In this document: in pieces, positions 193 to 57,600 of the stretch
Numbering within the stretch: the first letter of the stretch is position 1
Layout of the letters: every line of letters starts with the position of its first letter
DNA from: a virus
DNA length: 64,000 nt
Virus record (IMG/VR): IMGVR_UViG_3300017786_000003
Location: 43,861 to 107,860 of that record
Direction: 5' to 3' (one strand)
Position numbers and translations under genes: made by a program
Notes under the pieces: model-generated
Database searches by the model: none
Seen by the model: the letters and a program-made list of their open reading frames with translations, nothing else
What the model was told of the DNA's origin: nothing

Positions 193-609
193 ATGTCACA
201 AATAGGACAAAATATGATGTTAGTAAATTCTAGCTTTAGAAATGCTAAATCATTCACATTAATTCCAGTGAGTAATGACTCACCATATGTAGAAGCTATG
301 TTTGACCCAACGTCAGGCATCTTAGCTGTCATCAGTAAAGTGATGAAACAATCTTATCACATGGTACCTAAATTAGATGATGAAGGTCAACCTATGAGAT
401 TAAAGAAACCTAATATGCAGACGGGTAAAACTGTTAAAGAAGAAAGAAGATTGGTTGATACCTTTTCTGAGTTTTATCTTAGTGATAGAGAAGACATTGA
501 AAGATTTATACATATGTTTGCAGTTAATGCAGACAACTTTAGTGTAGAAGAATTCTTTGTGGATCTTAAAAAAACTGAGCCATCAAAAATTATATTACCT
601 GGACAGTAG
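193..609 (+). CDS. Hypothetical protein upstream of DNA polymerase
   Basis: A 138-residue soluble protein with no signal peptide or membrane segment. The N-terminal half reads as a compact beta-rich domain (around SFRNAKSFTLIPV and SPYVEAMFDP). A basic middle carries KPNMQTGKTVKEERR, and the C-terminal half is acidic and helical. I do not recognise the family. It lies six bases after the preceding gene and is followed by an intrinsic-terminator hairpin, so it appears to end a transcription unit just before the polymerase gene. Its position suggests a replication or early accessory role, but that is inference from location only. Confidence 0.7.
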   Translation: MSQIGQNMMLVNSSFRNAKSFTLIPVSNDSPYVEAMFDPTSGILAVISKVMKQSYHMVPKLDDEGQPMRLKKPNMQTGKTVKEERRLVDTFSEFYLSDREDIERFIHMFAVNADNFSVEEFFVDLKKTEPSKIILPGQ

Positions 610-643
610 ATTTCGTGGTTGACTTGCTACTGACTTAAAAAGG

Positions 644-10167: not shown

Positions 10168-10581
10168 CTATTTTTTACTTCTTCTTCCTTGAGCACTTGA
10201 TCTGTTACCAGAATAAGCTCTTTTACCTGCAGCTCTTTTAGCTCCTTTACTTTCATTTCTTCTAGACTTCATAGATTGTTTTTTCTTACCTCTTCTCATT
10301 CCTAGAGATTCATCTAATCTAGAATTGTATCCTTGCTTTTTCTTCTTTTTAACTGCTCCTCCTTTTTTATAAACATCCATTACATCTCCTCCTTCTTGCA
10401 TTCCCATGAGACCTCCCATATCTGCAAATTTTCTTTGTTTATTCATTCTTTCTGGAGAGACAAATGGGTCTCCATCTCCGGTAGTCATACCCATTCTTGC
10501 GTACATTTTTTGACCACCCTTTTGTTTTTTCATAAGTTTATCTAACTTTTTACTTGCTTTATAACCTGATTGTGCTGGCAT
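10168..10581 (-). CDS. Basic protein with QxGG sites
   Basis: A 137-residue, very basic protein. Around residues 19-75 it has KQKGG, MQEGG and YKKGG sites separated by polar linkers, followed by a nearly pure basic tail rich in K, R, S and G. No fold is recognised. The QxGG sites match those in the large ejected proteins further right, suggesting the same processing or assembly signal. The tail could neutralise packaged DNA. It starts after the leader AAAAAATAGAAATCATG. Confidence 0.65.
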   Translation of the reverse strand: MPAQSGYKASKKLDKLMKKQKGGQKMYARMGMTTGDGDPFVSPERMNKQRKFADMGGLMGMQEGGDVMDVYKKGGAVKKKKKQGYNSRLDESLGMRRGKKKQSMKSRRNESKGAKRAAGKRAYSGNRSSAQGRRSKK

Positions 10582-11474: not shown

Positions 11475-12317
11475 TTAAGGATATATTCTTATTTCTACTC
11501 CTGTTCTTATTAATTCACTGTCACCAAGACTACCATTTTCCTGGGTGCTTAACTGAAAGCTTGCAGTAGTAGCACCAAATATATTAATCACTACTGTTTG
11601 ATTTTTTAAATTACCTTGTACAGGTGCAAAAAATACTTTATCCATATCAGCTAGAGCTGTGTCCCAAGTACCTCTATACACTCCTGTAGTTATACGTGTC
11701 CAAGTAATATTATTACCTGTTGTATTTTCTAATACTGTTGCAGCTGGTGCACCGGTTCCAGATTGATTTAACAAAGCAGTGTAGCTTGTATACGGCCTTC
11801 CACCTGTGGAATTTATTGTTATTTCATTTGCACTTTGTGACACAGTAACATTTGTACCTTGCACAATACTTCTAAAATTAAGGGTCTCCCCTACTTTATC
11901 TTTAAAAATTTGTGATCCACCACCTACATTTGCTGCAGTATTTGGTTCACCACTTGTTGTTATCTCTACATAATCATCATCTGATGAATTAGCAAGAGTA
12001 AGGTTGCTGCTCAGAGACTTTAGTGATCTAAAATAAACAGTACATGTTTCTTCAACATCATCAGATTCTGTCTTCTGATATACTTGACCTGTGCCAGCAG
12101 CTGGATTAGCTGGAGAATTTGCGTGTGCACAATGTTCTGCAGCAACCTTAAAATCTCTCACCTTTATCACCTTTACACTTTTGTATGGTATAGGAGATGC
12201 TACACCTGTCATATCAGGCTTTTCATTCACCCCTAAAATCAATACATCGTCTAACTCAGCCTTCTTAGCAAAAACAGATCTTCTTATTAAACTTAATACA
12301 TCAGTTAAAATGTTCAT
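11475..12317 (-). CDS. Second fibre-like protein (280 residues)
   Basis: A beta-rich, T/N/S-rich protein. Its first about 30 residues (LTDVLSLIRR ... VLILG) align with those of the 1218- and 516-residue fibres, so it probably attaches to the same virion site. The rest contains two strand-rich segments, one with repeated NVTVSQSANEITINS-type alternation, and a C-terminal domain ending GVEIRIYP. There is no enzymatic motif. Its ATG overlaps the stop of the upstream 101-residue gene. It could be a short fibre, an adaptor or a fibre-cap protein. Confidence 0.65.
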   Translation of the reverse strand: MNILTDVLSLIRRSVFAKKAELDDVLILGVNEKPDMTGVASPIPYKSVKVIKVRDFKVAAEHCAHANSPANPAAGTGQVYQKTESDDVEETCTVYFRSLKSLSSNLTLANSSDDDYVEITTSGEPNTAANVGGGSQIFKDKVGETLNFRSIVQGTNVTVSQSANEITINSTGGRPYTSYTALLNQSGTGAPAATVLENTTGNNITWTRITTGVYRGTWDTALADMDKVFFAPVQGNLKNQTVVINIFGATTASFQLSTQENGSLGDSELIRTGVEIRIYP

Positions 12318-12619
12318 TTTTTCTTCTTCTTATTCTTTTTCTTATAAGAAGATGTCCATCCCCCTATCTTGTATGGTTGTTTTGATTCAGTACCATCTGC
12401 TCTTTTTGCATTCCTTAAAGCATTGCCTCCCTTTTGCATCTTATTTATTAAAGAGTTAAGAGATACATCTGCTAGGTCTAGTTCACCACCAAGCATTTTA
12501 CCAGATACGTCCATTGATCCTTCTTTAAGCATATCATCTATTGCGGCTGCTTGAGCCCCATGCATTTTAGATGCTTTCTTTAATGCACCAGATATTTCTT
12601 TTAACTTCTTCTTTGCCAT
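12314..12619 (-). CDS. Small lysine-rich protein with one QxGG site
   Basis: A 101-residue protein that opens with an amphipathic helix (LKKASKMHGAQAAAIDDML), continues with a polar helical region and an MQKGG site, and closes with a lysine tract. The 'HGAQA' helix recalls small conserved phage proteins of unknown role. It lies within the chain of overlapped small genes that leads into the fibre genes, and its stop overlaps the next start by four bases. No function can be assigned. Confidence 0.6.
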   Translation of the reverse strand: MAKKKLKEISGALKKASKMHGAQAAAIDDMLKEGSMDVSGKMLGGELDLADVSLNSLINKMQKGGNALRNAKRADGTESKQPYKIGGWTSSYKKKNKKKKK

Positions 12620-31400: not shown

Positions 31401-34400
31401 TCTTGTTTATATAAAAACGCTTGTGCCCATCTATCCATTTGTGAATTAATATCATCACGTTGGGCAGCAGAATAAACTAAGCTATTACCTTGTTGGTCTA
31501 TCTCAGTAAATATATACTCAACTCTAAAGTTTGAGAAACCTTTTATAATTTGTTGTAAGAGTAAAGGATCTTTAATTGGCAATGACAATGCTGACCCATC
31601 AAGTATTGCTTGTGGATTTATTTCTCCAAAAGTATCTAATAATATTCTATCTATTACTGCACCAGAGTTCACATTAGACTGTCCAAATAAATATAAACTT
31701 TTTAATATGTCTATAGGAGCAGTAAGATTCTTAACTGATTTTAAAATACCATTATATGCCTCATTAAAATTAACAGGAACTATTAATGGCTCACCTTCTA
31801 CCAATATAGTATTACCAAAATAATCTTGTTCTGTTACAGTAGTAGTTGCTAAGTAAGCTCTTAAGAAACCAGGTATACTATTTATTCCTCCTATGTTTGA
31901 AGCATCTGTATCAAATTGTGATGCAGATCTAATACCTGTTATATCTGAAAAGTATTCTTCATTATACACAGCATCTACTAATTGACCATTAATGATATTT
32001 AAATATTCAAATACTTGTTCTTGAATAACATCTTCAAACCTATCAAAGGCTAAACTTATTTCTGTTAGTCTTTGTTTTTGTATGTCTGATCTTTCTGCAT
32101 TAATTGGATTTTCAATATTATATAAATTTCTAAAGTTATCTAATACCTCATTCATTACTTCTCTAGGACTATATGGTCCTTCTGATGCAGCCTTGCGTTC
32201 AGCTTGAATATAATGTGCAGCAATACCATGTATAAGTGGATTGGCAATATTGTTACTTAAATACAAGTTTCCTTTTACACCATTTTGAGTAATCTCAGCA
32301 TATGGTACTAATGCATTTGCCTCAGAAGCAATACCAACTTGCATATCTGCAGTGAATTGATTTCTAACCAATGATGCTCCTTTAAACTTACCAGCATCTA
32401 TAGATTCAAATAAACTATCTAAAGAAGCAAGTTCTGTCTTAGCACCTAACACAGATTTAATCCATTCCATTATTCTATTAAAGAAAGACTTTATAATACT
32501 ATTAGTCTTTGTACTCTTAGGATTCATTTTAAATTTTTCAAATTCATCTGCTAAGTACTCTTCGTAATATTCTCTTTCTAATTCTGCTCTAGTCATATTT
32601 GCATATGTATCAGCAGAGTTCTTAAATTTCTGAAGTTCAATTTCTAAACTCTTTCCTTCAGATCTAAGTTTTGCTCTCACTTCTTTTTTAGCTATACCAA
32701 TATACTGGTTTATTTGCTCATCAGTTAACAACATTCTAAACACACCGTGAAAAGCCTCATGATATTTAAATGGAGAATTTGCTCCTGTGTATATTGTACC
32801 ATTAATCTTTAGTTCACCTGCAATCTCCTTAAGCACCATTACAAAAGCACCTACTCTAACCCCTCCTGCTTTCAGGTTATTACCTAAAGTCTCTATATCA
32901 GCTGTAGTTATAAAATCAGGTAATGCTCCTTCTGCCCATGTAGTAAAAGTATTTATATCTTCAATATCTTCTGGTTTGAGTTCTGAAGTATCTCTTACAA
33001 CTTTATTAGCACCTTTATCTAATTTTTTTCTAAGCTTTAAAAGGTTTTGGTATTTCTTACTTTCTCTTAGGACTTTACCTTTTTCTTTAAAAGGCACGCC
33101 TTGTGTAAGTTCTTCTTTTAATTTATCTAGTTCAATTATTACATCTGATAAAGATGCTACTTCATTAGTTGGATTTTCTATTTCAGAAGTATCTATTCCT
33201 TGTTTCTGTTTAGAATTAACTAATAAAGTTATTTCAGTAATCCTAGCTGATTCAAGTTCAGTTTCTCTTTCCGTAAGTTCTTCTCCAGCAACTCTTTTCT
33301 GTACTATCTTATTTATATATTCAACAGGTACTGATGCAAATCCTTCATCTTTATAATCAGCAAAGTCTTGATCAGAAATTTCTTCTAGTTCTACAAAAAC
33401 AGTGCTTGATGCTGGAGCCCGTGGTACTGATACATCTTGTTCTGGTGCATCTTCTGTTTGTGTATTAACACTATTAATAACTTTAGTTAATTGTAATGCT
33501 TGTAAAACACTTTGACTACTTGCATTCAGTAAAAGCTTCTGTGGCACAATTACATTATTAGCCACAGGTGTTGTTGTATTATTTATAATAGTATTTACAT
33601 CTGTATTCCTAGGCAAGTGTTCTCTAAAGTTTTTACTACCTAATACAACAGTTTTTCCTTTGAATTTTATTTCTTTATTAACTTCATCATTATTAAACTT
33701 TTCTATTAAGTTACTTAGTTTCTTTGCAGGAGTAAGACCCTCTTCAACTTTATTTACTTCATCTTTATCTAATTCATAAAATGTTCTTTCTTTAGTAAGC
33801 TTATTATATTTTAATAACTGAACTTTACCAAACTTATCTACTTTTAATTCTAAATCATATCCTTGAGCAAAACTAATAAATAAAGAATTCTCTAAATCTA
33901 TATTGAATTGTTTTGGATATTTATTATTTTTTTGTACCTCTTGAGCTTTTGTTATTAAGCTTATTGCTAAATCATTCATTTGCTGAGGAGTATAAGATCT
34001 AGCCTTTAAAGGAACTAATACATAGGTACCATTAGGTAAAAGAACTGCAGCTCTATATCTATCACTATTTTGTCTAATACCTGAAGAATTACCTTTGCTT
34101 TGTTCAACCATCTCTGACCATTGTCCAGACTTTTCTAATCCTGCTTTAACTTCTTCTCTTAGTTTTTTCTGTTCTGCAAGAGTCTTTTTATTTGTTACTG
34201 GTACAACAGTCCCTGCTTGTATATCATAGATTATTAACCCACCGGAGTTATCAGAAGTGTTATACTGTAGAGTATCAAATGAGTTGAGTATACCTTTCTG
34301 CATATCTAGTTTAACACCTTGCAAACTAAAACTCATACCATAAGGTAACTGCTTTGCATTAAGAGTAAATACATCCCCCTCAAAGGTTCTATCTATAAAT

Positions 34401-42538: not shown

Positions 42539-45500
42539 TTACATTCCCATTTTTCCACTATAAAATGGCATTACCCATTTTTTAATTTTTTTCTCCATAC
42601 CATGTTTACCCTCATCTACTGAGACATTTGATCCAGGATATCCCGGTATACCTCTTGATTGTAACTCTTGCTGTCCATATGTGGTACCTCCAACATTAGG
42701 TAAACCTGAGTGAGTATCCTGATATATTCTATTCTCTATTTCTTTTGTAGGTTGTACACCAGTTATTCTTGTATACTCTGCAATTTTTCTAAAGTATGCT
42801 TGATCAGCATCTTCCTTGTTTTGTTTAAAGAACTGTTTACCTTGGTCAGTAAATTCTATTTTTCCATACTCATCTGGATTTATACCATAATAATCATATA
42901 AACTATTCAAGTTAGCAGTATTAGCTTTATTTGTTTGAGCAGTATTCATTAATTCAACAGCTTTATTTATATAAGCATTATCAAAGTTATCTGCATCTTG
43001 TAGTGCTTTTACCGTACCATCATATGCATTCTGATCAATATCAGCTTGTGCTAAATTAAATTTATAATCTAACTGAGGCTGCATCATTCCTACTTGGTTC
43101 ATTGTTCTAACATTATTCTGATTAACTAAATTAATAGCTTTTGCATTAGCCGCCATTGTTTTACCTTGTATATTACTACGTGCAATCTGTTGCGGTCCAT
43201 AAGTAGACAAAGCCTCAGCCATAGTATTTTGTGCACCTAAGTTTGCATTTATTGCCTGTGTTGGATCATCTAATACATAATCTATAACAGGTCTTTCTAA
43301 TTGTGGAGCATAAGGTAAATATAAATTATCCTCCATCATTCCTAAAGCTCTTAGATTATTTAAATCTTGTTGCCAGAATCTATCAATAGGTGGATCAGCT
43401 TCTTCTATAGGGTTTGGTTCTATTGGATCATCTGGAATATCAAAAAATTGTTCATCATCAGAACCAAAATCTATATCTAATCTTGGTGCATTAAATGTAT
43501 GGAAACCAAATTTACTATCAAAACCTTCTCCTTTTATATAACCTTCACTACCCTTTTCTTTAAAGTAGGGCACATATAACTTATTATATAACTCTTCATT
43601 AAATACTCCATTAGCGTCTGTAGCTAATTTTCTAGCTTCTTCTTGTCTTGTTTTTTCTGCAAGTTTTTGGAACTCACCCCACTGCTTATTATCTCTACCA
43701 GCGTCATAATCAAACCCTTCTATTTGTTCTACTACATCTCCCCATCTTTCCATGAAGTCAGCTTCACCTTCTTCACTCATAAATACACTAGAACCATAAC
43801 TACCTTCACCTGCTTTAAACTGTTTCAATGGTCTTGAACCTTTTGAATATCTGCCGTATCTATACTGACCTATAGGAGAACCTTCAAGTACTTGCCCTTG
43901 TGTCTCTATATCATCTGAGTATATAACAGTTGATCCAGTTCCTTCACCTTCTATTTCTTCTCTTACTCTTTCATGACTTTTATCAAATCTACCTTGATAT
44001 GGTCTGTATGCTCTAAGTCTACCATCAGAAGTTAAACTAAAAGTATATCCTTCTCTTCTATACTTTTCCATTTTATCATAGTTTTCACTACCTTTTGGAA
44101 ATGGATTCTTATAGTTATCTACATTCTCATCAACAGTCTCTTCAACAGTAGATACTACATCTGCTGAGCCTTCAGTATTATCTGATTCTATAATTTCACT
44201 TGTAGAAACAGATAAATCTTCTGGATATGTTGGTTTATTAAATATATCATAATTATCTATATCTGTTAATGCTTTACCATACATTTGTTTTTCTTCATTG
44301 GTTAAGTCATCTAAAAATTTCTTAGGTATTGTACCATCTATACTTCTATGCAAATCTTGTCTAATAACATAATCAATATATTCAGCTCTTCCTACTGGCC
44401 TTCCCTGAATCTCATACATAGAGCTAGTAGTTACTCCAGCACGTGCTCCTGTATTCTCACCACCATCTTGCATCTTTCTAAAATTTGGTAACTCAAAGTT
44501 TTCTGATTGTTCTGGTAACTCACTTAGCTGTAATGATTTAAATAATCTAGTAACAACTGGTTCACTAAATGTAGATTTTTGATCAAAATTTGGTAATTGA
44601 AAATCTACTGATTGACTAGGCAATGAAGATAGATAATTATATTGTGGAGTGTTTGGTACAAAAGGTATTTTATTAGCTCCTGTAATAGCATCTAATTGTG
44701 ATTTTGTAGGCATACCCGGTATTTGTTGTCCAGGAACACCGCCCTGTTGAGCTTTCTTCATAGATTCTTTGATGGCAGCATCTCTTCTTGCTAAATATAC
44801 ATCTTCTCCTTTTGGTCCTCCATATGCTGCTGTTTGCATCATATCCATGTCTGCCTGTGCTAGTTGCATTTGGTCAGCAGGGTTTGGCTGTTGAGGTTGT
44901 ACTGGCATTGCTTCAGCTTGTTGTAACATTGCTTGAAGCATCATAAGTTTTTCTTGTTCTCCTGGAGGCATAGCGTCAATTGTATTTTGTTGTGCTTGTT
45001 GTTGAGATATATTTTCTATTTTTGCTGTAAACTCTAAAGGGTCTACTCCCACACTCAATAAAAAAGGATGTGCTATTAAAGGTACACCTTCTTCAAAATT
45101 CTTTTTATTTTCTTGCATGAATCCTAATTTAGATAAATCCATCATATTTTTCTTTAACATAAGCTCTGCACTTCTTGATGATATGTCATCAGCATATTGA
45201 GAATCTAATTCAGCATAAAAATCATTAATATCAAACTTCTTTGAAATTGCAGCTGGTGTTTTTTTCTTTTTACTTTCAATACCAAACTCTGCCATCTCAT
45301 CTCTATCAAATTTCATCTTTGCTGTATCAGAAAAAATAAATGATTGCTCAGGTAAAAACATAGGTGTTCCCCCTTTAGAGTGTCTTTTACCCCCTATATC
45401 ATATAAACCAAACATACCATCACCTGACAAATCTGTTAGGACTGTTTCTCCACGTTCTGCTTCTACGTTTGCATTTTCTCTAGGTACACTAGATAAACTA

Positions 45501-45700
45501 TATCTAACGTTCTCATCACGTGTATTATTAAAACTAGTTTCTCCATAGTATTCCTGTGGAACTGAAACCAAACCATAATCAGCTTGATCACCAGTAGTAT
45601 ACATATCACCACCAGTACGCATAAATTTGTCTTCTACAACTTTACCGTTTACTAATTTAAATCCTTTAGGTAATTTACCTTTTAGTTTTATTTTTGCCAT
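42539..45700 (-). CDS. Virion cargo protein with HSxGG core and QxGG sites
   Basis: A 1053-residue protein. Residues about 75-135 include ENANVEAERGETVLTD and GGKRHSKGGTPMFLP..SFIFSD, a motif pair common in crAss-like phage virion proteins. A glutamine-rich helical stretch follows (about 235-290). Residues 292-321 hold the 29-residue module YGG...YLAxRD...KAQQGG shared with the 1035-residue protein. A further QDGG ends at G414. The rest is polar and low-complexity with acidic segments, ending in a basic YSGKMGM tail. There is no enzyme motif. It is probably a scaffold or cargo protein ejected with DNA. Confidence 0.65.
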   Translation of the reverse strand: MAKIKLKGKLPKGFKLVNGKVVEDKFMRTGGDMYTTGDQADYGLVSVPQEYYGETSFNNTRDENVRYSLSSVPRENANVEAERGETVLTDLSGDGMFGLYDIGGKRHSKGGTPMFLPEQSFIFSDTAKMKFDRDEMAEFGIESKKKKTPAAISKKFDINDFYAELDSQYADDISSRSAELMLKKNMMDLSKLGFMQENKKNFEEGVPLIAHPFLLSVGVDPLEFTAKIENISQQQAQQNTIDAMPPGEQEKLMMLQAMLQQAEAMPVQPQQPNPADQMQLAQADMDMMQTAAYGGPKGEDVYLARRDAAIKESMKKAQQGGVPGQQIPGMPTKSQLDAITGANKIPFVPNTPQYNYLSSLPSQSVDFQLPNFDQKSTFSEPVVTRLFKSLQLSELPEQSENFELPNFRKMQDGGENTGARAGVTTSSMYEIQGRPVGRAEYIDYVIRQDLHRSIDGTIPKKFLDDLTNEEKQMYGKALTDIDNYDIFNKPTYPEDLSVSTSEIIESDNTEGSADVVSTVEETVDENVDNYKNPFPKGSENYDKMEKYRREGYTFSLTSDGRLRAYRPYQGRFDKSHERVREEIEGEGTGSTVIYSDDIETQGQVLEGSPIGQYRYGRYSKGSRPLKQFKAGEGSYGSSVFMSEEGEADFMERWGDVVEQIEGFDYDAGRDNKQWGEFQKLAEKTRQEEARKLATDANGVFNEELYNKLYVPYFKEKGSEGYIKGEGFDSKFGFHTFNAPRLDIDFGSDDEQFFDIPDDPIEPNPIEEADPPIDRFWQQDLNNLRALGMMEDNLYLPYAPQLERPVIDYVLDDPTQAINANLGAQNTMAEALSTYGPQQIARSNIQGKTMAANAKAINLVNQNNVRTMNQVGMMQPQLDYKFNLAQADIDQNAYDGTVKALQDADNFDNAYINKAVELMNTAQTNKANTANLNSLYDYYGINPDEYGKIEFTDQGKQFFKQNKEDADQAYFRKIAEYTRITGVQPTKEIENRIYQDTHSGLPNVGGTTYGQQELQSRGIPGYPGSNVSVDEGKHGMEKKIKKWVMPFYSGKMGM
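44738..44827 (-). repeat. Gly-Gly-bounded module, copy in the 1053-residue protein
   Basis: Residues 292-321: a YGG, then KGE..YLA.RD..IK..M.KAQ, then QxGG. It matches the copy in the neighbouring protein at 19 of 29 positions with no gaps. The block reads as one amphipathic helix flanked by Gly-Gly. Confidence 0.75.
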
Positions 45701-45702
45701 AA

Positions 45703-48700
45703 TTATAACATTTCTATATCAGCTCCCGCTGCAATTAATTTTGCTAATATTGATGAGTCAACATTAACAGTCTCACCACCCTCTTGTCTTCTGGTTCCAG
45801 TTTGTCCTAAATCTAAACCTGAAACAAAGTTTAACGGATATCCTTCAACATCTGAAGATACTGATTGTATTGGTTGTGACTCAATAACAGAAGCTGCAGG
45901 AATGTTGTATTGCTTAAGTAAATTCCTAGCTTCATCTAACTGAGTTTGTATCTTAGGTAGTTGTCCAACATATCTTAAAAATTGTGGATCTTCTCCTCTT
46001 ATTGCATTTGGATCATTTTGATCATATGGCCCATCTACCATTGGAAAATTACCTTCATTAAAATCTAATCTAGTTCCACTATCTGCTTGATATGCGTTAA
46101 ATGTTGGTTGCATCACAGGCATACCATCTTCATCATAAGTACCAGAAGTTGTTTCTTCTCCAGGACCAGAATAAATACCTGTATGATGAGGTCTCCAAGA
46201 TTCTCTATTACTATGCTTTCCTCTATATGTAGTTGGTGCGTAGCTATACATAGATACCATATCACCTAATTCTGCCTCATCATCACTAATTAACTCAAAT
46301 GGTATTGAACCTGCACCAGGAAACTTAGAGCCATAAGCTTTTTCAGTTAAACTATAATTACCACCCAAAGTTGGCATATCATATGCTCCTGCTTGTTGGT
46401 ATGCAAAACAACCATATGGAGTACAATATAATTCATCATCGTTACTACCAGTAGTACCAAGTGTACTATAAGGTGTATCACTACCTGCTCTAGTTTTTGG
46501 TAATGCATCCTTTATCATTTGAGGTAACTTCTCATATGCACTCATCATTTCTTTTCGGCTAGTTGCTAGTTGAAAGTCTCTGTATAATTGGTAATCTTCG
46601 TCAGACATTCCTCCCTCACTTGGACTTAAAAACATCCTATCATCTGCTTGATCCAAAAATTCTGATGTACCTAGTATATTATCTCTTACTTCATTAACTC
46701 TTGTTTCTTCTGTATTATATAAGTTTTTAATGTAATTATAATAAGCACGAGCTGATGCACTATCTTTTACACTTTCACTAGTAAGACTCCCGCCATCTTG
46801 GGCTTTAGCCATTTCTCTTTTTATAACTTTATCTCTATTAGCTAGATAAGCTGCTTCTCCTTTCTCACCACCATATTCAGATACTGAATTCATATATAAA
46901 CCAGTTACATAGTCTGAGTCAGCACCAGTTCTTCCTGTGTTTATATCAGTAGTACCTTTATAATTAAATGGTTGTGTGTATGTATTAAATCTTTCATCTG
47001 CTATTGCACCCATTCTATTATCTACTTGTGCATCAAAAATATCATCTCTTTTAGCAAACTTAGTTAATTCTGGAGCTAACTGAACAGCTACGTCACTTAC
47101 ATCTTCAAAACCTCTCATAAAGTTACTATCCCTAAATCTATTATAAGCTCCTTCTATTCCTCCAGTATTTATATTTATTTCTGGTGGTGTAATTTCATCA
47201 AAAGCAGCTTGAGCTTCAGCTTGAGCCTTTTCTTGCATTCCTTGTTGATTCTGTTCATTTAAAGAATCTAACGTTGCTTGGTTCTGTTGTTGTGCTGGTG
47301 TTGGACCTACTAATGGATTTCTTTGTCTGAATTCTTCATCTTCTACCATTTGCACAGATGTGCTGTAATCTAAAAAAGGTACATTAAAATCAAAGATATC
47401 AGAACTATCTTGTTGTGGAAACATAGCACCTCCATCTTGTTTTTGTGGAAACATTTTTTGTAATGCTTCTAATGTTGCATTACCTACATTACCTAAATTT
47501 TCTTTTTGAGTAGCTGCCCAGTCTTTGAAATCTTTTTGTAAGTTACTAATCATTCTTTCAGTGCCAAGCCCTCCACCTGTAACTGTCTCATTAAAATTAC
47601 CTACATCAATATTAGAAGCAATTTCATTTGCATTTTCTGATGACTTTAGTAAGTCTACATACTTTTGCATTGCAGCCATATTATCTTCAGATAAAAATTC
47701 ATCCATATTCTTTATTGAATACTCTGCATCTTTAAATTTATTAGATCTATTTATATCTTTTTTTGCCTGCCAATCTCTGAATGTTCCATCTTTAACACCA
47801 TCTTTATTTAGATCTTTGCCACTAAACATATCTTCATATCCAGTACGTAGAGTATTAAAAATATTAGCATAGTTGACATCTCCATCTTCAAATGCAACTG
47901 GGTTAATGTAAAATGGCTTAGCATTTATAACATCATAATTATAATTCTTATCAATCTTATACGTTGGGTTTGGGTCTGCAATTGTTCCCATACCACCATA
48001 TTGCATTTGGGGTGCTTGCTCTTTTAATTTTTTTAAACCTGCTCTTCTATATGCATCAAATTTACCAACACCGTTCATATCACGGCTATATGCTCCAGTA
48101 TTAATTGGTACTAAAACATTATCTATTATAGCTTGAACACGTTCTGGATCTTCCAAACCAGTATAAAAATCTGAACCTCTTAAATCTTCTAGGGTCAAAT
48201 TAAGTTGAGTAGTCATATCTATTTCCTCACCACCTTCTTGTTTTTTAAACTTAGCAGCATTACGTGCAAAATTAGCCATTTTTACTACTTCGGTAGAATA
48301 CTTCTCTTTATTAGCTAAAACCTTTCTAGCAGCTTCTTGTACACCCATACCACGTGCCTTAGCCCATTTAGTAAACTTACCTCTATTTTCTTTTTTAATT
48401 TCTATGCCTGATTTAGCATACTCATCTATTACATCTACATTAAGATCAACAGGATCCATTTCACTTTCTACTGATTCATTTCTTGCTAGCTCTTGAGGAT
48501 TTTGATTTACTTGTGCAGGAGTAGCAAGTTCAGGTTGCATTCTTTTAACAACTTCTTGAAAGACCTGTTGTATTTGGACTTCTTCCATACCACCCATCAT
48601 AAGTGCTTGAGCTATAACTTGTTGATCTATTTCTTGTGTAGAAAGTTCTGTTACTACATCAACTATATCTTTTCCTTGTTTAACTGACTCACTAATCATC

Positions 48701-48810
48701 ATAGTAACTTTCTGAATCATAGGATCCGGTTGCTGATTATTTTGCATACCAGGTTGCGTTGGAATCATTTGTCCTCCTTGTTGTTTTAAACTTTTTTTGT
48801 TTAATTGCAT
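45703..48810 (-). CDS. Virion cargo protein with NlpC/P60-like peptidase and QxGG sites
   Basis: A 1035-residue protein. The N-terminal 170 residues are Q-rich and helical, resembling internal phage proteins. Six QxGG sites (first Gly at 12, 193, 272, 460, 673 and 1011) punctuate it. A papain-like domain lies at about 775-905: C796 (LYCTPYGCFAYQ), a GDMV turn and H876 (HHTGIYSG) in the order Cys...His of NlpC/P60/CHAP peptidases, which cleave peptidoglycan peptides. It may digest the host wall during entry or process virion proteins. The shared Gly-Gly module is at 645-674. It is packed two bases from the next gene. Confidence 0.7.
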   Translation of the reverse strand: MQLNKKSLKQQGGQMIPTQPGMQNNQQPDPMIQKVTMMISESVKQGKDIVDVVTELSTQEIDQQVIAQALMMGGMEEVQIQQVFQEVVKRMQPELATPAQVNQNPQELARNESVESEMDPVDLNVDVIDEYAKSGIEIKKENRGKFTKWAKARGMGVQEAARKVLANKEKYSTEVVKMANFARNAAKFKKQEGGEEIDMTTQLNLTLEDLRGSDFYTGLEDPERVQAIIDNVLVPINTGAYSRDMNGVGKFDAYRRAGLKKLKEQAPQMQYGGMGTIADPNPTYKIDKNYNYDVINAKPFYINPVAFEDGDVNYANIFNTLRTGYEDMFSGKDLNKDGVKDGTFRDWQAKKDINRSNKFKDAEYSIKNMDEFLSEDNMAAMQKYVDLLKSSENANEIASNIDVGNFNETVTGGGLGTERMISNLQKDFKDWAATQKENLGNVGNATLEALQKMFPQKQDGGAMFPQQDSSDIFDFNVPFLDYSTSVQMVEDEEFRQRNPLVGPTPAQQQNQATLDSLNEQNQQGMQEKAQAEAQAAFDEITPPEININTGGIEGAYNRFRDSNFMRGFEDVSDVAVQLAPELTKFAKRDDIFDAQVDNRMGAIADERFNTYTQPFNYKGTTDINTGRTGADSDYVTGLYMNSVSEYGGEKGEAAYLANRDKVIKREMAKAQDGGSLTSESVKDSASARAYYNYIKNLYNTEETRVNEVRDNILGTSEFLDQADDRMFLSPSEGGMSDEDYQLYRDFQLATSRKEMMSAYEKLPQMIKDALPKTRAGSDTPYSTLGTTGSNDDELYCTPYGCFAYQQAGAYDMPTLGGNYSLTEKAYGSKFPGAGSIPFELISDDEAELGDMVSMYSYAPTTYRGKHSNRESWRPHHTGIYSGPGEETTSGTYDEDGMPVMQPTFNAYQADSGTRLDFNEGNFPMVDGPYDQNDPNAIRGEDPQFLRYVGQLPKIQTQLDEARNLLKQYNIPAASVIESQPIQSVSSDVEGYPLNFVSGLDLGQTGTRRQEGGETVNVDSSILAKLIAAGADIEML
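46789..46878 (-). repeat. Gly-Gly-bounded module, copy in the 1035-residue protein
   Basis: Residues 645-674: YGG, then KGE..YLA.RD..IK..M.KAQ, then QDGG. It has the same spacing as the copy in the downstream gene, with identity at 19 of 29 positions, while the surrounding sequence does not align. Confidence 0.75.
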
Positions 48811-48870
48811 GATGATTATATTATAATATTAATATACAAATAATTAGGGAGAATCACTAATCTTTTAGGT

Positions 48871-51648
48871 TTAAGAATTGCCTGCAACATAAGTCATAAT
48901 GTAATTAGCAGGACTCATATTCATAGCTTTAGCATCTCTATAATAAACTCTATTAAGTTTATCATATACTTTTTGACCAATTATTTCTTCTTGTTTTGTT
49001 TTGAAATTACCATTTATATAATGTTTATAAATAGCATGTGGATTACTCATACTTCCACCATCTTGACCTTTAGGTAATGTTTTAATTTTACCGTTCTCAG
49101 TTCTAGCATATCTGTTCTTTTCATTTTCCATGCTAGGAATAAGTGTGCCTGAATAAGTTTTACCTTTCCATTGCCAGCTAACTGATCCACCTTTTTTATA
49201 TTCAGGTCCTTTTACATTTCCATCTTTATCTTTAAAGTATACGTTTTCTGAAAGACCTTCTGTTTCTCCTTGTTTAGTTCTTACATACCCGTCTGGCAAA
49301 AGATTGTTATATGAAAGGTATTTTATAACCTCATCTTTTTTAGAATCATCTATATTTAATGATCCAACAATTGATCCAACATAATTATTAAATGTGTCTT
49401 CTCCCATTTCTAGAAGCTTTGCTAAGAATGGTCTTTCATCTCCGCCAAATATAGTTCTTAACTCATGTCCTACACCTAATAGATTTGAACCTATAAAACC
49501 AGCTGCTTTGTCTACACCAACAGAATCTAATAGTCCACCAACATAAGGTATATCTTTAACTTTTTGTTGTATTGCTTCTGCTGCATATCTACCTCCTGCA
49601 GCATGTCTCATATTATCAATACTATTTTCTTCACCAGGATTCTCAGCAAAAGCTTGAGCTCTATCATTTACATTATCTAAAGATGCATTAATTAATTTTT
49701 CTAGATCAGAAAGAAAACTGGTTTTAGGATTTGACCTCTGAATTGCATTTACATCACCACCTTCTTGAAAACCTAATTTGTCTTTCCAGTAATTTGGTAT
49801 ATTTTTAATACCTTCCATAGAGATGTCTATATTAGGAACATCTATACCTAATTTTTCAATTGCAAATCTATTTGCTTTATCTTTAGCCATATCTAAAAGC
49901 TCAGGTGCCCACTTATCTCTTTCATAAATTACTGTTTTTAATGCAGCTGGTATTGTTCCATCTGGAAGGATATTATATATCTCTTTTGCATCAGAACCTA
50001 CCTGACGTAATCTTTTTGCTGCTTTATCCTGTCTGCGTTCACTGGGCTCATCACCAAAAGGAAGGAAGCCAGATATAACTGTATCAAGATCTTTTAATGT
50101 TTGATCTGTTATGTCACCAATACCCTTATCTTTTATTGCTTCTATTGCTGTAGGATTATGTAATACTGTTTCTACTACATCATTTATTTCATCTCTATCT
50201 AAACCATCTAAATAATTTGTAAGAAGATTAATAGTAGTAGCATTAAGATCTACTTTTGCTTCTTCTTTTACTAATTTTGTTAACCCCTCAAATCTACTTG
50301 TCCTTTTTCCTTTTACACTTCCTGGAACTATTTTATCACTATAATTTTCTAAAATATTATCCATAACAAAATTAGGATCAGTAATACCCCCTCTACTATT
50401 TTCTGGTGAATTAGGATCCATACCTAAAGCCAAACATACCCCAGTAGCACAATTAGAATCTAAAAAGTCATAATTATATATGCTTTCATCCTCCAATGAT
50501 ATAGGAAGTTTTTCTGGTCTCAATCTTACATCATCATGAATAGAACTTCTTTCAGTACCTTCAAATAATTGTGCTTGATTTATAAAACCTTTTATTTCAT
50601 CATCAGATAAATCTAAATCTAAAACTCTTACGTCATCTTTCCCTTTATAATCTCTTTCACTAACACGTTTATTTCCTGAACCAGTTGACCATCTATTTAC
50701 ACGGCCAACTAACTTAGTACCAGGTATTACATTTACTTGATCACCTGTATCAGTATTAATTAGTACAGCTTCAATATGTCCAGGACTAAACTTTTTACTT
50801 CCATAAGGATATTGTATAACTCTTACATTATATTTTGAATAATCTATATCATTAATTCCTTTAGATCTTTCTGGGTCACCACCGTCTTGTAACTGACTTG
50901 CTTTGGAACCTTTGTTTATTGTTTTAGCTGCCAACTTAGCCTGGAGAGGAGTTACACCTTTAATTGCTTTGAGGGGTTTAGCAAAAGGTATTATACTTAA
51001 TGCATTTAGTGCTGCGTTACTATAATCACCACTATCTAAACTATCAGCTGATTTATACGCAGCATTAATTGGATTAAAAAAATCTATTGCACTTGTAAAA
51101 GAATCTTTTTCAACTTGTCCAGCATCTATACCCTTATCAAAATTATATGGTACATTTCCAGTATTAAATTTTTCTTTAATAGTTGCAAAAGGATATCTAA
51201 CAAATGATCTTATGTCACTTTTAAAATTATCAAGCATGCTAGGTGCTTGTGTTATTGTACCTCCTTGTTGAAATTGTTCTGGTTGTTCTAACTCAGGTTG
51301 CATTCTATAGTTAGTAGTAAGTTCTTCTCCTTCTTTTAAATCTTTCAATGCATATACAAATCTTTGATCACCTACCTTTTTACTCATCATAGTTGGTGAT
51401 TCTTCATTATGATTATGCATCTTACCTAACTGAGTAACAGGTTGTCCACCTTTATGTGCTAAACCTATTAGCTCACCCTGTTTAAAAGATCTTCCTGCAA
51501 ACATACCATCTCCTTCTATATCAGAAGGGGCTTGAAATATATCACTCATAGGTGCATTAGAACTAAACACACCAGTTACATAGGTAAACATTTCATTAGG
51601 TCCACCAGGTAATCCTCGTCTTTCTTTCTCTTCAAAATATTCTTTCAT
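48871..51648 (-). CDS. SET-like domain plus permuted NlpC/P60-type peptidase
   Basis: A 925-residue multidomain protein. Residues about 40-118 match a SET domain: IEGDGMFAGRSFKQGELIG, the NHN core at 79-81, and GEELTTNY at 107-114, a layout like short viral SET methyltransferases. Residues about 270-430 look like a circularly permuted papain/NlpC-P60 peptidase: H291 (SPGHIEAVLI) comes before C400 (LDSNCATGVCLALG), as in YiiX/LRAT-type folds. QxGG sites (first Gly at 129, 256, 630 and 864) and a KKGG site (820) fall between domains. The C-terminal domain is unknown. Its start overlaps the muzzle-like stop (TAATG). Probably a virion cargo protein. Confidence 0.72.
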   Translation of the reverse strand: MKEYFEEKERRGLPGGPNEMFTYVTGVFSSNAPMSDIFQAPSDIEGDGMFAGRSFKQGELIGLAHKGGQPVTQLGKMHNHNEESPTMMSKKVGDQRFVYALKDLKEGEELTTNYRMQPELEQPEQFQQGGTITQAPSMLDNFKSDIRSFVRYPFATIKEKFNTGNVPYNFDKGIDAGQVEKDSFTSAIDFFNPINAAYKSADSLDSGDYSNAALNALSIIPFAKPLKAIKGVTPLQAKLAAKTINKGSKASQLQDGGDPERSKGINDIDYSKYNVRVIQYPYGSKKFSPGHIEAVLINTDTGDQVNVIPGTKLVGRVNRWSTGSGNKRVSERDYKGKDDVRVLDLDLSDDEIKGFINQAQLFEGTERSSIHDDVRLRPEKLPISLEDESIYNYDFLDSNCATGVCLALGMDPNSPENSRGGITDPNFVMDNILENYSDKIVPGSVKGKRTSRFEGLTKLVKEEAKVDLNATTINLLTNYLDGLDRDEINDVVETVLHNPTAIEAIKDKGIGDITDQTLKDLDTVISGFLPFGDEPSERRQDKAAKRLRQVGSDAKEIYNILPDGTIPAALKTVIYERDKWAPELLDMAKDKANRFAIEKLGIDVPNIDISMEGIKNIPNYWKDKLGFQEGGDVNAIQRSNPKTSFLSDLEKLINASLDNVNDRAQAFAENPGEENSIDNMRHAAGGRYAAEAIQQKVKDIPYVGGLLDSVGVDKAAGFIGSNLLGVGHELRTIFGGDERPFLAKLLEMGEDTFNNYVGSIVGSLNIDDSKKDEVIKYLSYNNLLPDGYVRTKQGETEGLSENVYFKDKDGNVKGPEYKKGGSVSWQWKGKTYSGTLIPSMENEKNRYARTENGKIKTLPKGQDGGSMSNPHAIYKHYINGNFKTKQEEIIGQKVYDKLNRVYYRDAKAMNMSPANYIMTYVAGNS

Positions 51649-54600
51649 TAGCGTTTAGATAATAATAGTTTAGTATTGTTTAATCTTAGTAACATTTTTC
51701 TATCTCCTGATCTATTTTTTCTTAATATTAATTGGTTAGAATAATGTCTAAATTTTTTGCGTTGTGTAGGAGACTTATCATAATTAAGATTAAGTGCATT
51801 TAAAGGTCTAATATAACCATTACACTGTGTATTAAATATAGGTTGTTCAACATTAGTAAATTCACCTCTATCATTTGTTATATCAAAAAATTGATTAAAT
51901 CTAAATTTATGTTCTACTTTAGATGATAGTATGTCTATGCTACTATTATTTATTATTGGATAATTTAATTCACCCCACGGATCATTGTAAGGTTGCATAT
52001 TTAGATTTAATAATCCAGATACTTGATCATTATTATAAACTATAGCATGATCAAAATTAAATTCTAAATCTTCCCACTTATCTTCTCCACAAGCGTTACC
52101 AAGTGTATTATTTTTATAGACGTATGTTTCAAGTTGATATTCAATACTTCTAACTGTATTAACAATTTGACCTGTATTTTCTATTAGATCTATTTCCCAA
52201 GGATAATCTACCTTATAGAAATTCACATATGAATCACACCTTGCATTATGTCTCCATATAGAACCTACTTCAAAGTTAGCATTTTCTTGCTCAAATATTT
52301 GATAGTTACAAACTCTATTACTTGTAAACGTTGGAGTATCTACTTGATAAATTAATGGTGCTGAATCAGGACAATCACCTGTAACAGTAGTAGTATAACC
52401 AGGTTGAGAAGTTGGACAATCACAAAGAACTCGTCTGCATATAGGTGGATTAACAGGATCACATGTACCCGTTGCTTGTGTATAGTCTCCGTTAGCATCT
52501 GGATAAACTATTGTGTATCCTGCAGGACAACTACAAGAAGGGGTAGAAGTACATATTTGGCCAAGAAATTCAGTAGCAATCATATCCCAGTTTGTTATTG
52601 GATATGATGCATCAATTGTAGATTGTATACCAAATTGATATCTATCAGTTGAAATACCAGCCGTACCAGGTGATATAGTTGGTGGTCCTCCTGTACTAGT
52701 AATATTATTTAATACCAATGGTTGAACTGGTACTGGACTATTTACACCACAATAAAGTGCATATACAAATTGATTTGCAGGAGCAGGACCTCCTGGAACT
52801 ATTGTACTAGATTGAAACTGGGTATTTGGTCCCGTTGGTGATGTAGTATCTGTAATTAATAATATAATTTGTGTAAAGTTTCCTTGTCCTGATCTATCTC
52901 CTAATGCAGAAGCTGCTTTATTATTAAGTAGTGCTTGTCCACCTGTTAAACCTCTAGTTATATTAGTACCTGTCCCAACAGTAGTTCCTGGTGGCCAAGC
53001 TCTAGCTGCTAATGTTTGAGCATACCAATTAAGAACATTTGCACGGGCTTGAGGTGTTGTAATATTATTAACCATACTTTGTGTAGAAGCTGCTGGTGAA
53101 CCAGTATTATTCACATCCCAACTTTGTGATAGGTTTGCCCATGCAGTAAATCCTATTTGCATTGTTCCAGCTTGTTGAGCATTTATAACTAAAGGATTTT
53201 GTAAAAACGCCTGTATCCATTGTTGTTGTGCAAATGCTCTAGTTCCTGGGTTATTAGGGTTTTGCCCTAATCCCATAGTACTTGTAGACATGTCTGTAGC
53301 AATAACTATATCTAATAAACATGCTTGTGTTCCACCTGTTAGGGTCATTGTTCCTCCATTGTCTACAGTAATTGTTGCAGGCTCAGTAATTGTATCTGCT
53401 CTTTCACATTTGAAAGATGTTGGATTGTAATTAAATCCTGGAGGACATTGAGGTACATCAGTTGTTAAAGTCTTAGTAGTAAAGAAATGATTTATACTAG
53501 GTAAAGTTAATTCTGGGTGCCAATCATGAAATGATATCCAAGCTTTAGCTTTTGGATCATAACTTACTGTCCAAGAACAATCATCAAAGTAAACTGGATC
53601 TCCAATACTAATATCTATTATTGTTGAACCAGTACCTAGACTACCTAATGCAGCTGTTACATTAAATTTAAATCCTCCTTCTTCAGTATAAGTTACATTG
53701 CTTATATATTCTTTTTTTACTTTATAATCTCTTTTACAGAAGTATACTATATCATTATTAGTATCATACACTGTTTGGCAACCTACACCTGCTATAGGAT
53801 TGTCAGATAATACAGAATGTTCTAACTCTGGAAATTGTCTTATTAATGAAGAAGGTAAGTATTTATTAAACCACCACTTCATACCTTTGTTAGATATAGG
53901 ATCTAAACCTTTACCTGCATATTGGAATATTTTTCCTTGTGCTTGTGATATAAAAAATAATCCCATTGGTGTATTCATTACACCTCTTAAACTTTCAGAT
54001 GAACCATATTCATTAGATAAATCAGAATTAGCAACATTTTGCATTGGTTGAGAAAAAAGACCACCATCACCAATAGTTACCTTTGTATCTAATTGAGTTT
54101 TTAAAACATCAACACCTTGAAACAATTGAGGAGATAAGTATGGGAAAAATACTAGTGCACCATTTTTACTAAAAGGTTTTATTACACTTACTTCACCTTT
54201 GAAATCTTTATAATTAAAGTTTAAGAATACTCTCCAGAAATCTTTTTTAGATTCTTCTTGAGCTCTTAAAGAATATACAAGTCTTTTAGGGTAACTTGTA
54301 AAACATGTTTCAGCAACCAAAGGATCATAATCTAATGGCTGTACTTGACCAAAGCTACCTATTTGAGTAACAAACTTTGATGGACTTAAAGATTCATCAT
54401 ATTTATAGAAGTTGTCTGCTTTTTCTATTCTTGCATGAAATAGCTCATCAAGATCATTGTAATCATATACACTGTATATTCTTCTTGCTGGTGATTCTTC
54501 CCAATCTCTATAATCTAAATTAATTTCTGACTCTACATAAAAATCTAATATACCATTATTGTGAGTATATATATAAGCAAACCTCATAGCTAATGCAGGA

Positions 54601-57600
54601 TTCGGATCATTTGCGTTTCCAAATATTGCACTTAATCCAGTATTACATGAATCATTTCCTCTATCTAAATAATATAGATCATCTGGAAATTTAGCATCTA
54701 ATGCATTTTCACTTTGCAACCCTAATGTTGCAATTTCTCCTGCCAAAGGAGTTAAGTCAAATCTTTGAGAATTCAACCAGTATCTTGGATAAGGAATATT
54801 AACATATAAAGAATAGTCAAATGTATAACCATCAGGTTGTCCTTGTAAGTAATTACTAAATATAGGCATTATTGTTTTTTCAGTATATCTACCTATAAAT
54901 GTATCACCAGAAAAAATTGGTTGGCTTTTATATTTAAATTGATTAGGTTTTGTTGGATCTAATAATTCAACACAACCTCTCATTTGTATTTGTTTAATAC
55001 CAGCCAGCTGTCCGTACTGATTATCCATATTAAACTTTAATGCCCCATAATAAGCTGATATCTGTCTTTTCTTTGATGATCCAGGGTCTAATAAATAGTT
55101 ATCAGAAAATGGTATTGGTTGACTGCTTACATATTCCCCTTGTGCATTTAGATTCATTTCTACTTCACCACCTACTACATATCTAGATTTATCTTTAAAA
55201 TCTGGATCTGATATTGGTTTATCTATAGCTACTGCCACAGTGCTTGGTCTAAATAAATTATTAATTTTATATTCTCCTTTGTTAAATGTTTGAAAAGAAG
55301 AACCTAAATAATTTGAGTCAGTACATTTAATTCTCCATAAACCATTTGTTTGATTTCTGTATGTATCAAAAAATCCAGATGAATTATGTTTCCATGCAAA
55401 ATCTGAATCATTAACCATTGCATATATTAAATCTATAATTTCATTTCCACCTATTGCAACATTTGCTTTAGCAACAGCCATACCTGCAAAAACTCTAACT
55501 ACAAAAGGAAGATTAGAAACACTAGTATCTTTTCTAGTTGAATTACTTTTCATTCCACCAATTACTCCGGGGATACCACCTTCAGCAGACTGTATACCTT
55601 CACTAACGGCTGTTGCAATTTGACTAACTGCTCCCCCACTATAAAAATCTCCAACTGCTATTAAATCATCTATTAAAAATTGTTCAACTATTTGCAATAC
55701 TGTAGAAGCTGCACCAGCTGCACCAGCTACAGGTCCATTAACCAAAAGCCATCCCCCAGGCTGTACACCATAACCAGCACCCGCAGGTCCTCCAAAACCC
55801 CAATTTCCACTTACAGAATCCATAGCAGCCCTTGCTCCTTCAAAACTACTAGTATCAGTACCTCTCACTTGATGAAATGCATAACCTAAACCAATAAGAG
55901 AAGCAATTACTGCACCACCATTTCTTAATAATTTAAATTGTGGATGGTCTTCTGATGGTTTAAAATATCCAAATGCATTACCTGTTAACTGACCATACAT
56001 TCTAGCTTCAAATGCATTTAAAAATGGTTTTGTAAACATAAGTTCAGGAGAAGAAAATGTAAAAACTTTTCTTGAATATCCAGCAGGTTCACCATCTACG
56101 TCTGGTCTATCACCTAATGCTCTATATCCATTTACACCTAATGACTGAGTAAAACTATCACAACCACTAGTTCTATTTAATGGGCCTCCTTGAATACCAT
56201 CATGAAAATATATATCTGGTCTTAAATCATTATATGGATAGTTAGGATATAAACCTTGAACCCCATCTCCTATAAGATCTTGTGCGTTTGGTACAGTGTA
56301 CTTACGCATATTTCTAAATAAACCTTTTGCAAGTATAGATCTTGCACCAAGCCTTGAACCTCTTAAAATTTCATAACCAACTACATTTTCAATAAATGTA
56401 CCGTCATTATTTGTTGGTCTTCCTATATTTTCAAACTCAACTCCTAATATCTGCATAGTATCACCATTGTCTTTAGTGATATGTAATGGACCTGCATTAC
56501 CTATTTCTTCTGTTGGCATCTTATGATGTCTAATTGGTAAGCCACATAAATCTCCCCAAATATCAGGTCTATTACTAGGATATCTTTCTGTTGATTCCCA
56601 ATATCCCATTTTACCTCTTGCGGTAATAACATCACCATTTGCTGATATTTCTTGTAATCCTTGTTGGGTAATAGACCCAGTGTTATATACTTTATATACT
56701 GGATCTCCATTAGGATCTATAACATTTTCTCCAAAAATAATTTCATTTTCTAAAACTGTATTTCCATTATCTAATGTATAATTTTCAGGTGCTCTACCCG
56801 GTATATGATATGAAGAAGATCTTTCACCAGTATTATATATCCAACGTATAAAAAATGCATATTGTTCATCCCTCATAAAACCCATATTATTCCCACCTAA
56901 AGAATAATAAGTTGAATCTTGTTGATTAATTACCCAATTAACTTGTATTTGATTAGCAATAGGTTGATAATTAAAATCAAATTGTTCTGTTGGTCCTTGT
57001 CTAATTAAGTAATCATTAACAACAAACATAGACTCTGATTTTTCATAAGCAGGACTACGTAAAGGTATTTGATCTAAAGCTACAGCAGTTAATGCTGGGT
57101 CAATATAATCTATGTTAATATTAACTTGTTGTGTACTATATAACCCAATTTTTTTAGCAAATGTTTGACCTTGGTTTCTCACTAATAATACTAATTCAAA
57201 GTACTCATAGTCTTCATCTAAATTACTTATTGATATATCTAATGATCCTTGTGAACCTGCATGTGACCAAAGTGTTTGAATATTAGATACTCCAATATAG
57301 TCAGTTACTCTTTGTTCATTTTCTGTATAAGCAACAAATGCTTGATAAGAACCATTTGATAATAATCCTCCGTCAGTATTTTTATTTAGTTTTACGCAAG
57401 GTGTATCTAATAAAGGAGCCAATCTTATTTGTTCACAATCTAATTGTAATGGTAATATGTTTTCATATATTACACATGGATCACCAGGAGCAGAAGTTAT
57501 TTCTTGTTTATATGGTATATCATCTATGTTCATTGCACGTGATGGATTATTACCATCATCCCAATAAACTTCCCATGTACAATCAAAATTTTCTTTTGAT

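Follow-up and report, generated by a model that had tools for sequence, protein, structure and literature searches.

Crassviruses are the most abundant viruses of the human gut, and the locus analyzed here touches the question of how they move cargo of megadalton size through a narrow tail. In crAss001, gp45 and gp46, encoded between the muzzle and the polymerase, are the cargo proteins C1 and C2 (PMC10172136). C1 is seen in two places simultaneously and is assumed to be a single stretched chain; its portal-bound modelled domain spans residues 425-552 (PMC10172136). A giant protein is also ejected by phage N4, whose virion RNA polymerase contains an HExxH zincin-like motif (PMC12633501) and is packaged unprocessed (PMC5512222). 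Polyvalent proteins, a further group of large multidomain phage proteins, are thought to be delivered to the host, and their embedded peptidases have been proposed to release domains (PMC5512222, Iyer et al. 2017). A literature search for cleavage of crassvirus cargo, for the proteases involved and for Gly-Gly motifs in these proteins returned nothing.

Here, we analyze a window of 64,000 nucleotides that corresponds to bases 43861-107860 of a 107,860-base virus record, the 107.9-kb genome of a crass-like phage. Its minus strand encodes, in this order, a muzzle-like protein, proteins of 925, 1035, 1053 and 1119 aa, and two giant proteins of 4565 and 1906 aa that hold the RNA-polymerase position as judged by gene order. 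A portal and a major head protein were recognised elsewhere in the record, and no dedicated prohead protease was detected when the main head and packaging proteins were scanned against Pfam and PHROG. The slot between the muzzle and virion RNA polymerase genes was matched in crAss001 and related loci in a gene-order test. The 925-, 1035- and 1053-aa proteins occupy the cargo-protein slot, and the gene order agrees with that of crAss001.

QxGG sites in the cargo-slot proteins

A preliminary description had listed 15 Gln-x-Gly-Gly (QxGG) sites in five proteins and read them as possible traces of polyprotein-like processing. All 15 are present (Table 1), against ~1.45 expected in these proteins from within-protein shuffles, and the remaining proteome of the 107.9-kb genome contains 4 sites against ~6 expected. 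Single sites occur in the muzzle-like protein (residue 750), a 516-aa fibre protein (249), the 1119-aa protein (1056) and a 186-aa protein (171); these lone occurrences are at chance level. The stated absence of the motif from the muzzle-like, RNA-polymerase and fibre proteins thus holds for the two RNA-polymerase proteins, which have none, but not for the muzzle-like and fibre proteins with one each. QxGG itself captures the motif only in part: the sites are real, but KxGG is enriched as well, and at the best-conserved border the Gly-Gly is kept while the Gln is not. The initial observation is real and broader than first described.

Table 1. Coordinates of the features discussed, numbered from the first base of the window
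Feature	Residues	First Gly	Window position	Strand	Remark
Muzzle-like protein			51648-58004	-	virion-protein PHROGs matched
925-aa modular cargo-slot protein (m2)			48871..51648	-	module layout in text
SET-domain match PF00856	76-114		51307..51423	-	
QQGG	127-130	129	51259..51270	-	border after SET-like module
QDGG	254-257	256	50878..50889	-	border before permuted papain-like module
Permuted papain-like module	263-633		49750..50862	-	PGHIEAVLI ... SNCATGVC
QEGG	628-631	630	49756..49767	-	border after permuted papain-like module
QDGG	862-865	864	49054..49065	-	before C-terminal module
1035-aa modular cargo-slot protein (m1)			45703..48810	-	six QxGG
QQGG	10-13	12	48772..48783	-	N-terminal leader site
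QEGG	191-194	193	48229..48240	-	end of KGKFT module
QYGG	270-273	272	47992..48003	-	
QDGG	458-461	460	47428..47439	-	
QDGG	671-674	673	46789..46800	-	end of repeated segment YGGxKGExxYLAxxDxxIKxxMxKAQxGG
Papain-like module, cysteine then histidine	~701-1008		45787..46710	-	CTPYGC...H
QEGG	1009-1012	1011	45775..45786	-	before conserved C-terminus ETVNVDSSILAKLIAAGADIEML
1053-aa cargo-slot protein			42539..45700	-	two QxGG
QQGG	318-321	320	44738..44749	-	in 1053-aa protein
QDGG	411-414	413	44459..44470	-	in 1053-aa protein
HEAFH motif	2114-2118		32747..32761	-	in 4565-aa RNA-polymerase cargo protein (25403-39100)
101-aa basic protein			12314..12619	-	
QKGG		64	12425-12436	-	in 101-aa protein
137-aa very basic protein			10168..10581	-	
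QKGG		22	10513-10524	-	in 137-aa protein
QEGG		64	10387-10398	-	in 137-aa protein

When the 1035-aa protein was modelled with AlphaFold, each of its six sites fell in coil with a pLDDT below 50, a placement that is only supportive because about half of all residues of this protein are likewise coil at pLDDT <50. The model of the 925-aa protein is poor (mean pLDDT 43.5). Foldseek searches of both models against the PDB returned nothing, and searches against viral models gave weak links from the 1035-aa protein to crass-like cargo proteins. The CTPYGC...H module of the 1035-aa protein also occurs in the m2 protein of another phage. A comparison of the 1053-aa profile with that of gp45 was not significant, and an assignment of the 1053-aa protein as C1 by profile is unsupported. 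The small, very basic Gly-Gly proteins are possibly DNA-associated; comparable small basic proteins lie close to the corresponding place in two other genomes, one of 102 aa and one of 90 aa with three QxGG (G001 and G002, respectively).

Module borders across related phages

A scan with the alignment of the 1053-aa family yielded 80 viral contig stretches, i.e., 79 besides a near-identical one, and gene order is conserved in the related stretches. QxGG occurs 78 times in relatives of the 925-aa protein (18.6 expected) and 128 times in those of the 1035-aa protein (23.9 expected), and KxGG 102 times (43 expected) and 106 times (26 expected), respectively; these family counts are inflated because homologous sites share ancestry and are not independent, a bias that leaves the count of the window itself unaffected. 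The neighbouring families are not enriched in QxGG, with 15 sites against 12.1 expected in muzzle proteins, 24 against 21.7 in the 1053-aa family and 9 against 10.8 in the 1119-aa family, and the RNA-polymerase family contains 9 against 23.1. Since the 1053-aa family is at chance, the two sites of the 1053-aa protein are a trait of this phage and not of the family.

After removal of similar contexts, 136 distinct non-redundant QxGG sites remained, with preferences for L/I at position -4, P/S at -3, K at -2 and M/K/Y/A at -1 before Q-x-G-G, and for E after it. A sister form, GG-x-LPKAQ-x-G, is found as well: [LI]P[KRMQ]AQ occurs 47 times where 0.1 are expected and 22 times where 0.4 are expected. 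A DNA pattern scan for GGxxLPKAQxG hit at least 120 viral-contig stretches; among the matches listed, the sister form stands in frame within long ORFs at 79 of 80 loci, and for about a quarter of these listed ORFs similarity to the fetched cargo proteins was not detectable. The number and spacing of sites differ widely among phages. Three apparent gene splits at the motif (L047, L063 and L099) look like frameshifts and were set aside.

The 925-aa protein consists of a conserved N-terminus (1-30), a SET-like module, a segment at 130-256, the permuted papain-like module, a segment at 644-820, the SVSWQWKGKTYSG module and a C-terminal module. As proposed, its sites fall between these parts: the one at 129 follows the SET match at 76-114, those at 256 and 630 lie before and after the module at 263-633, and that at 864 precedes the C-terminal module. 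The pieces 263-633, 644-~820, 815-868 and 862-925 match proteins of other phages elsewhere in the chain or in the other cargo gene, and the resulting homology breaks at 267, 644, 817 and 864 coincide with motifs. The permuted papain-like module, too, is carried by other phages at different positions and in the other cargo gene. The SET match stands where homologues usually carry an SPDxNNPxNII...FPGD N-terminal region. Across the family, modules include SLT, LysM, PG-binding, YkuD, phage lysozyme, ART-PolyVal, Peptidase_M91, Amidase_6 and SET, i.e., mostly cell-wall enzymes, as expected where proteins must breach peptidoglycan. One homologue of 2185 aa (L003 7301-13855, G001) combines a zincin-like HEIGH motif with SLT, YkuD and permuted papain-like modules in a single chain, with Gly-Gly motifs between them.

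To compare motifs with module borders, we collected 660 clustered homology breaks from 103 proteins, excluding muzzle proteins and retaining high-identity breaks only, and counted motifs within ≤10 residues against rotated sites. QxGG occurred 75 times near breaks versus 25 expected (3.0x), [QK]xGG 148 versus 48 (3.1x), GGE 110 versus 25 (4.4x) and PKAQ 37 versus 7.7 (4.8x), while the controls (other Gly-Gly contexts, GxG, PxP, NP and DG) were flat at 0.9-1.2; breaks inherited by several phages are counted repeatedly in these numbers, and the controls carry the same bias. An earlier version that included muzzle proteins gave a diluted ratio of 1.8. The sites are kept at domain borders in homologues, and the processing idea survived this check.

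Alignments of the two best-defined borders reveal which residues are held. At the C-terminal module border of m2, Gly-Gly is present in 50/50 aligned sequences and followed by Glu in 34/50, and the Gln position is filled by K (18), A (13), Q (8), E (5) or R (4); the family was aligned in two halves, and the window protein is counted once per half. In the N-terminal leader of m1, Gly-Gly is present in 46 of 49 aligned sequences, 43 of these 46 with Gln. From these alignments, Gly-Gly is the core of the motif and Gln one of several permitted residues. The borders of modules are marked by a motif of the form [hydrophobic]-x(0,1)-[Q/K/A/R]-x-Gly-Gly-[Glu/Ser/Gln], with the sister form GG-x-LPKAQ-x-G. 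The polyprotein-like reading suggested at the outset is borne out to this extent: the proteins are built of swappable modules, and the motif is non-random at their borders and conserved in relatives.

Known crassviruses carry a related border motif, as indicated by enrichment of AxGG in C1-type proteins, with 8 sites in gp45 (1.5 expected) and 5 (1.1 expected) and 4 (0.6 expected) in two gut relatives. Residues 130-190 of the 1035-aa protein, the KGKFT module, align to residues 368-425 of gp45 (hhalign E 5e-4, probability 31%). This module is followed by K-K-Q-E-G-G in the 1035-aa protein and by N-A-F-G-G in gp45, such that the site at 193 takes the same place as A425-F426-G427-G428. The modelled C1 chain runs through the Gly-Gly at 425-428, which therefore looks uncut in the virion. 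The KGKFT module (GIEIKxENxGKFTxWAKARGM...MANFAxNAA, PHROG 20603) is common to gp45 and the gut phages cr127_1 and cr108_1, and it possibly recurs in a small protein of Thermus phage P74-26, a weak structural match. The CARG1 portal-binding domain (PF25725) is present in gp45, where it covers 424-555, and in Cellulophaga phage phi14:2 gp81, and was not detectable in the 1035- or 1053-aa proteins. In phi14:2 gp81 (L117 11361-13142), a structural protein, CARG1 is accompanied by zincin-like HEFTH and HEFIH motifs with A-A-M-G-G-P-V-D-P-P-S-K between them; with its cultured host, this phage is a good test system.

Processing, docking and hinge readings

On the sequence data, the motif is best read as a module-border element that is probably a processing site and possibly a docking or hinge element. 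The 925- and 1035-aa proteins would be modular cargo in which swappable, often cell-wall-active modules lie between fixed N- and C-terminal segments. The border motif would be recognised by a protease and cut after Gly-Gly, and these cuts may trim terminal packaging segments, free single modules, or both, either in the maturing head or, with greater likelihood, in the course of ejection or afterwards. Among the families compared, the enriched motif is restricted to cargo-slot proteins, and it is conserved at the amino acid level. Against cleavage, the position ahead of x-Gly-Gly accepts Q, K, A, E or R, a loose specificity for a protease; the short repeated segments between sites fit docking equally well; and the N4 polymerase, despite its HExxH domain, reaches the capsid intact (PMC5512222, PMC12633501). 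We hold the protease-site reading tentatively, as a call that falls slightly short of even. Should the sites be cut, the injected proteins of crass-like phages would follow a virus-polyprotein strategy. The border motif provides exact candidate positions for cutting or docking, lets giant proteins that otherwise lack annotation be divided into modules, and points to a named candidate enzyme.

Somewhat unlikely, in our estimate, is that Gly-Gly and its flanks bind either the inner face of the portal, tail rings or muzzle, or a loading chaperone, and thereby serve as a packaging or threading handle for each module that is never cut. Such docking would account for the gp45 structure, in which the ring-bound segment 214-245 starts just past S-A-Y-G-G (first Gly 209) and another A-F-G-G marks the start of the portal-bound domain 425-552 (PMC10172136), as well as for the short conserved segments that recur between sites and for the terminal segments adjoining sites, which are among the most conserved parts of the proteins. 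However, the ordered ring-bound density of gp45 does not include the Gly-Gly at 209-210, the 137- and 101-aa basic proteins, whose genes are distant from those of the tail, carry the motif as well, and site number and spacing vary between phages in a manner unlike that of a stoichiometric dock.

We consider it improbable that the motif is a flexible hinge between modules that unfold through the tail tube, repeated because linkers descend together with their modules and recognised by no partner. Modules do move together with the flanking motif, the sites are in predicted coil, and Gly-rich borders are what linkers would look like. Yet linkers rarely keep position-specific preferences such as Q/K/A/R two residues before Gly-Gly, M/Y/F/L/K before that, Glu after it, or LPKAQ at 47 versus 0.1. 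Other Gly-Gly contexts, GxG and PxP are unenriched at borders, and an ordinary linker would not persist in 46/49 N-terminal leaders.

A DNA repeat that promotes module exchange, with an accidental amino acid reading, would explain why sites fall where phage-phage homology breaks; this is very improbable and was rejected, as the codons at Q, G and G match the background of the same genes, which indicates that selection acts on the peptide and not on DNA, and as the 1035-aa family retains its leader site at a fixed N-terminal place. Chance or the composition of Gln- and Gly-rich proteins is a negligible explanation: Gln-rich stretches do exist in the 1035- and 1053-aa proteins, but the composition-keeping shuffles reject it, and the enrichment recurs across ~110 homologous proteins.

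Candidate enzymes and comparison with known systems

Under the processing reading, the two papain-like modules had been put forward as the enzymes. They were detected in 8 and 9 of the 79 related loci. Of 56 loci in which the start of the 925-type gene is intact, 45 contain neither module but still have 4-21 [QK]xGG sites; this patchy occurrence rules the modules out as the general processing enzymes. The permuted module has a conserved H and C (PGHIE...SNCATGVC), but Pfam gives only a sub-threshold Lnb_N similarity for this module; its peptidase activity is therefore uncertain, and it may instead be an amidase or acyltransferase.

A stronger candidate is the metallopeptidase-like motif HEAFH...EEYxAD midway along the 4565-aa protein, where EEYLADEF lies ~70 residues past HEAFH (family pattern EEYxAD(E/Q)F). 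Domains of this kind have been put forward as processors of polyvalent proteins (PMC5512222). Of 35 records searched, 33 contain the zincin region, and the remaining two are on contigs whose ends may truncate the gene. HEAFH is found in all 30 fetched copies, with a strict EEYxAD downstream in 27, and HExxH also occurs in crAss001 gp47, cr108_1 and other crassviruses. No Pfam family recognises the HEAFH region of the 4565-aa protein. The most likely processing enzyme would be this conserved zincin-like metallopeptidase inside the giant virion RNA polymerase protein rather than the patchy papain-like modules. With motif and candidate enzyme changed in this way, the polyprotein-like reading is a reasonable hypothesis. 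We are doubtful of the wider proposition of an order-wide crass polyprotein system, in which Gly-Gly border sites (QxGG/KxGG here, AxGG in gut phages) would receive timed cuts by the polymerase-borne metallopeptidase, and swappable cell-wall and effector modules would be loaded as one chain and released as separate parts.

Adenovirus protease, African swine fever virus pS273R and SUMO proteases recognise x-x-Gly-Gly in core proteins or polyproteins, and their substrates include small basic core proteins. The recurrent x-x-Gly-Gly at domain borders is matched here, and the resemblance is one of sites only: the enzymes named are Ulp1-type cysteine proteases, of which none was found here. The polyvalent proteins share ADP-ribosyltransferase (ART-PolyVal, PF18760), lysozyme-type and peptidase domains with the present cargo family (PMC5512222). 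Here, too, several unrelated enzyme domains are joined in one polypeptide (SET and papain-like in the window; SLT, YkuD, LysM, ART-PolyVal and M91 in homologues). In contrast to polyvalent proteins, most modules here act on peptidoglycan, and it is a separate polypeptide, the RNA polymerase, that bears the conserved peptidase-like motif; the polyvalent paper mentions neither a border motif nor diglycine nor crAss (PMC5512222). N4 likewise ejects a giant RNA polymerase with HExxH, and no Gly-Gly motif system has been described for it (PMC12633501). Relative to crAss001, where C1 contains AxGG, the cargo proteins of the present phages use QxGG/KxGG and, unlike C1 and C2, are two or three large proteins in which enzyme modules have been swapped.
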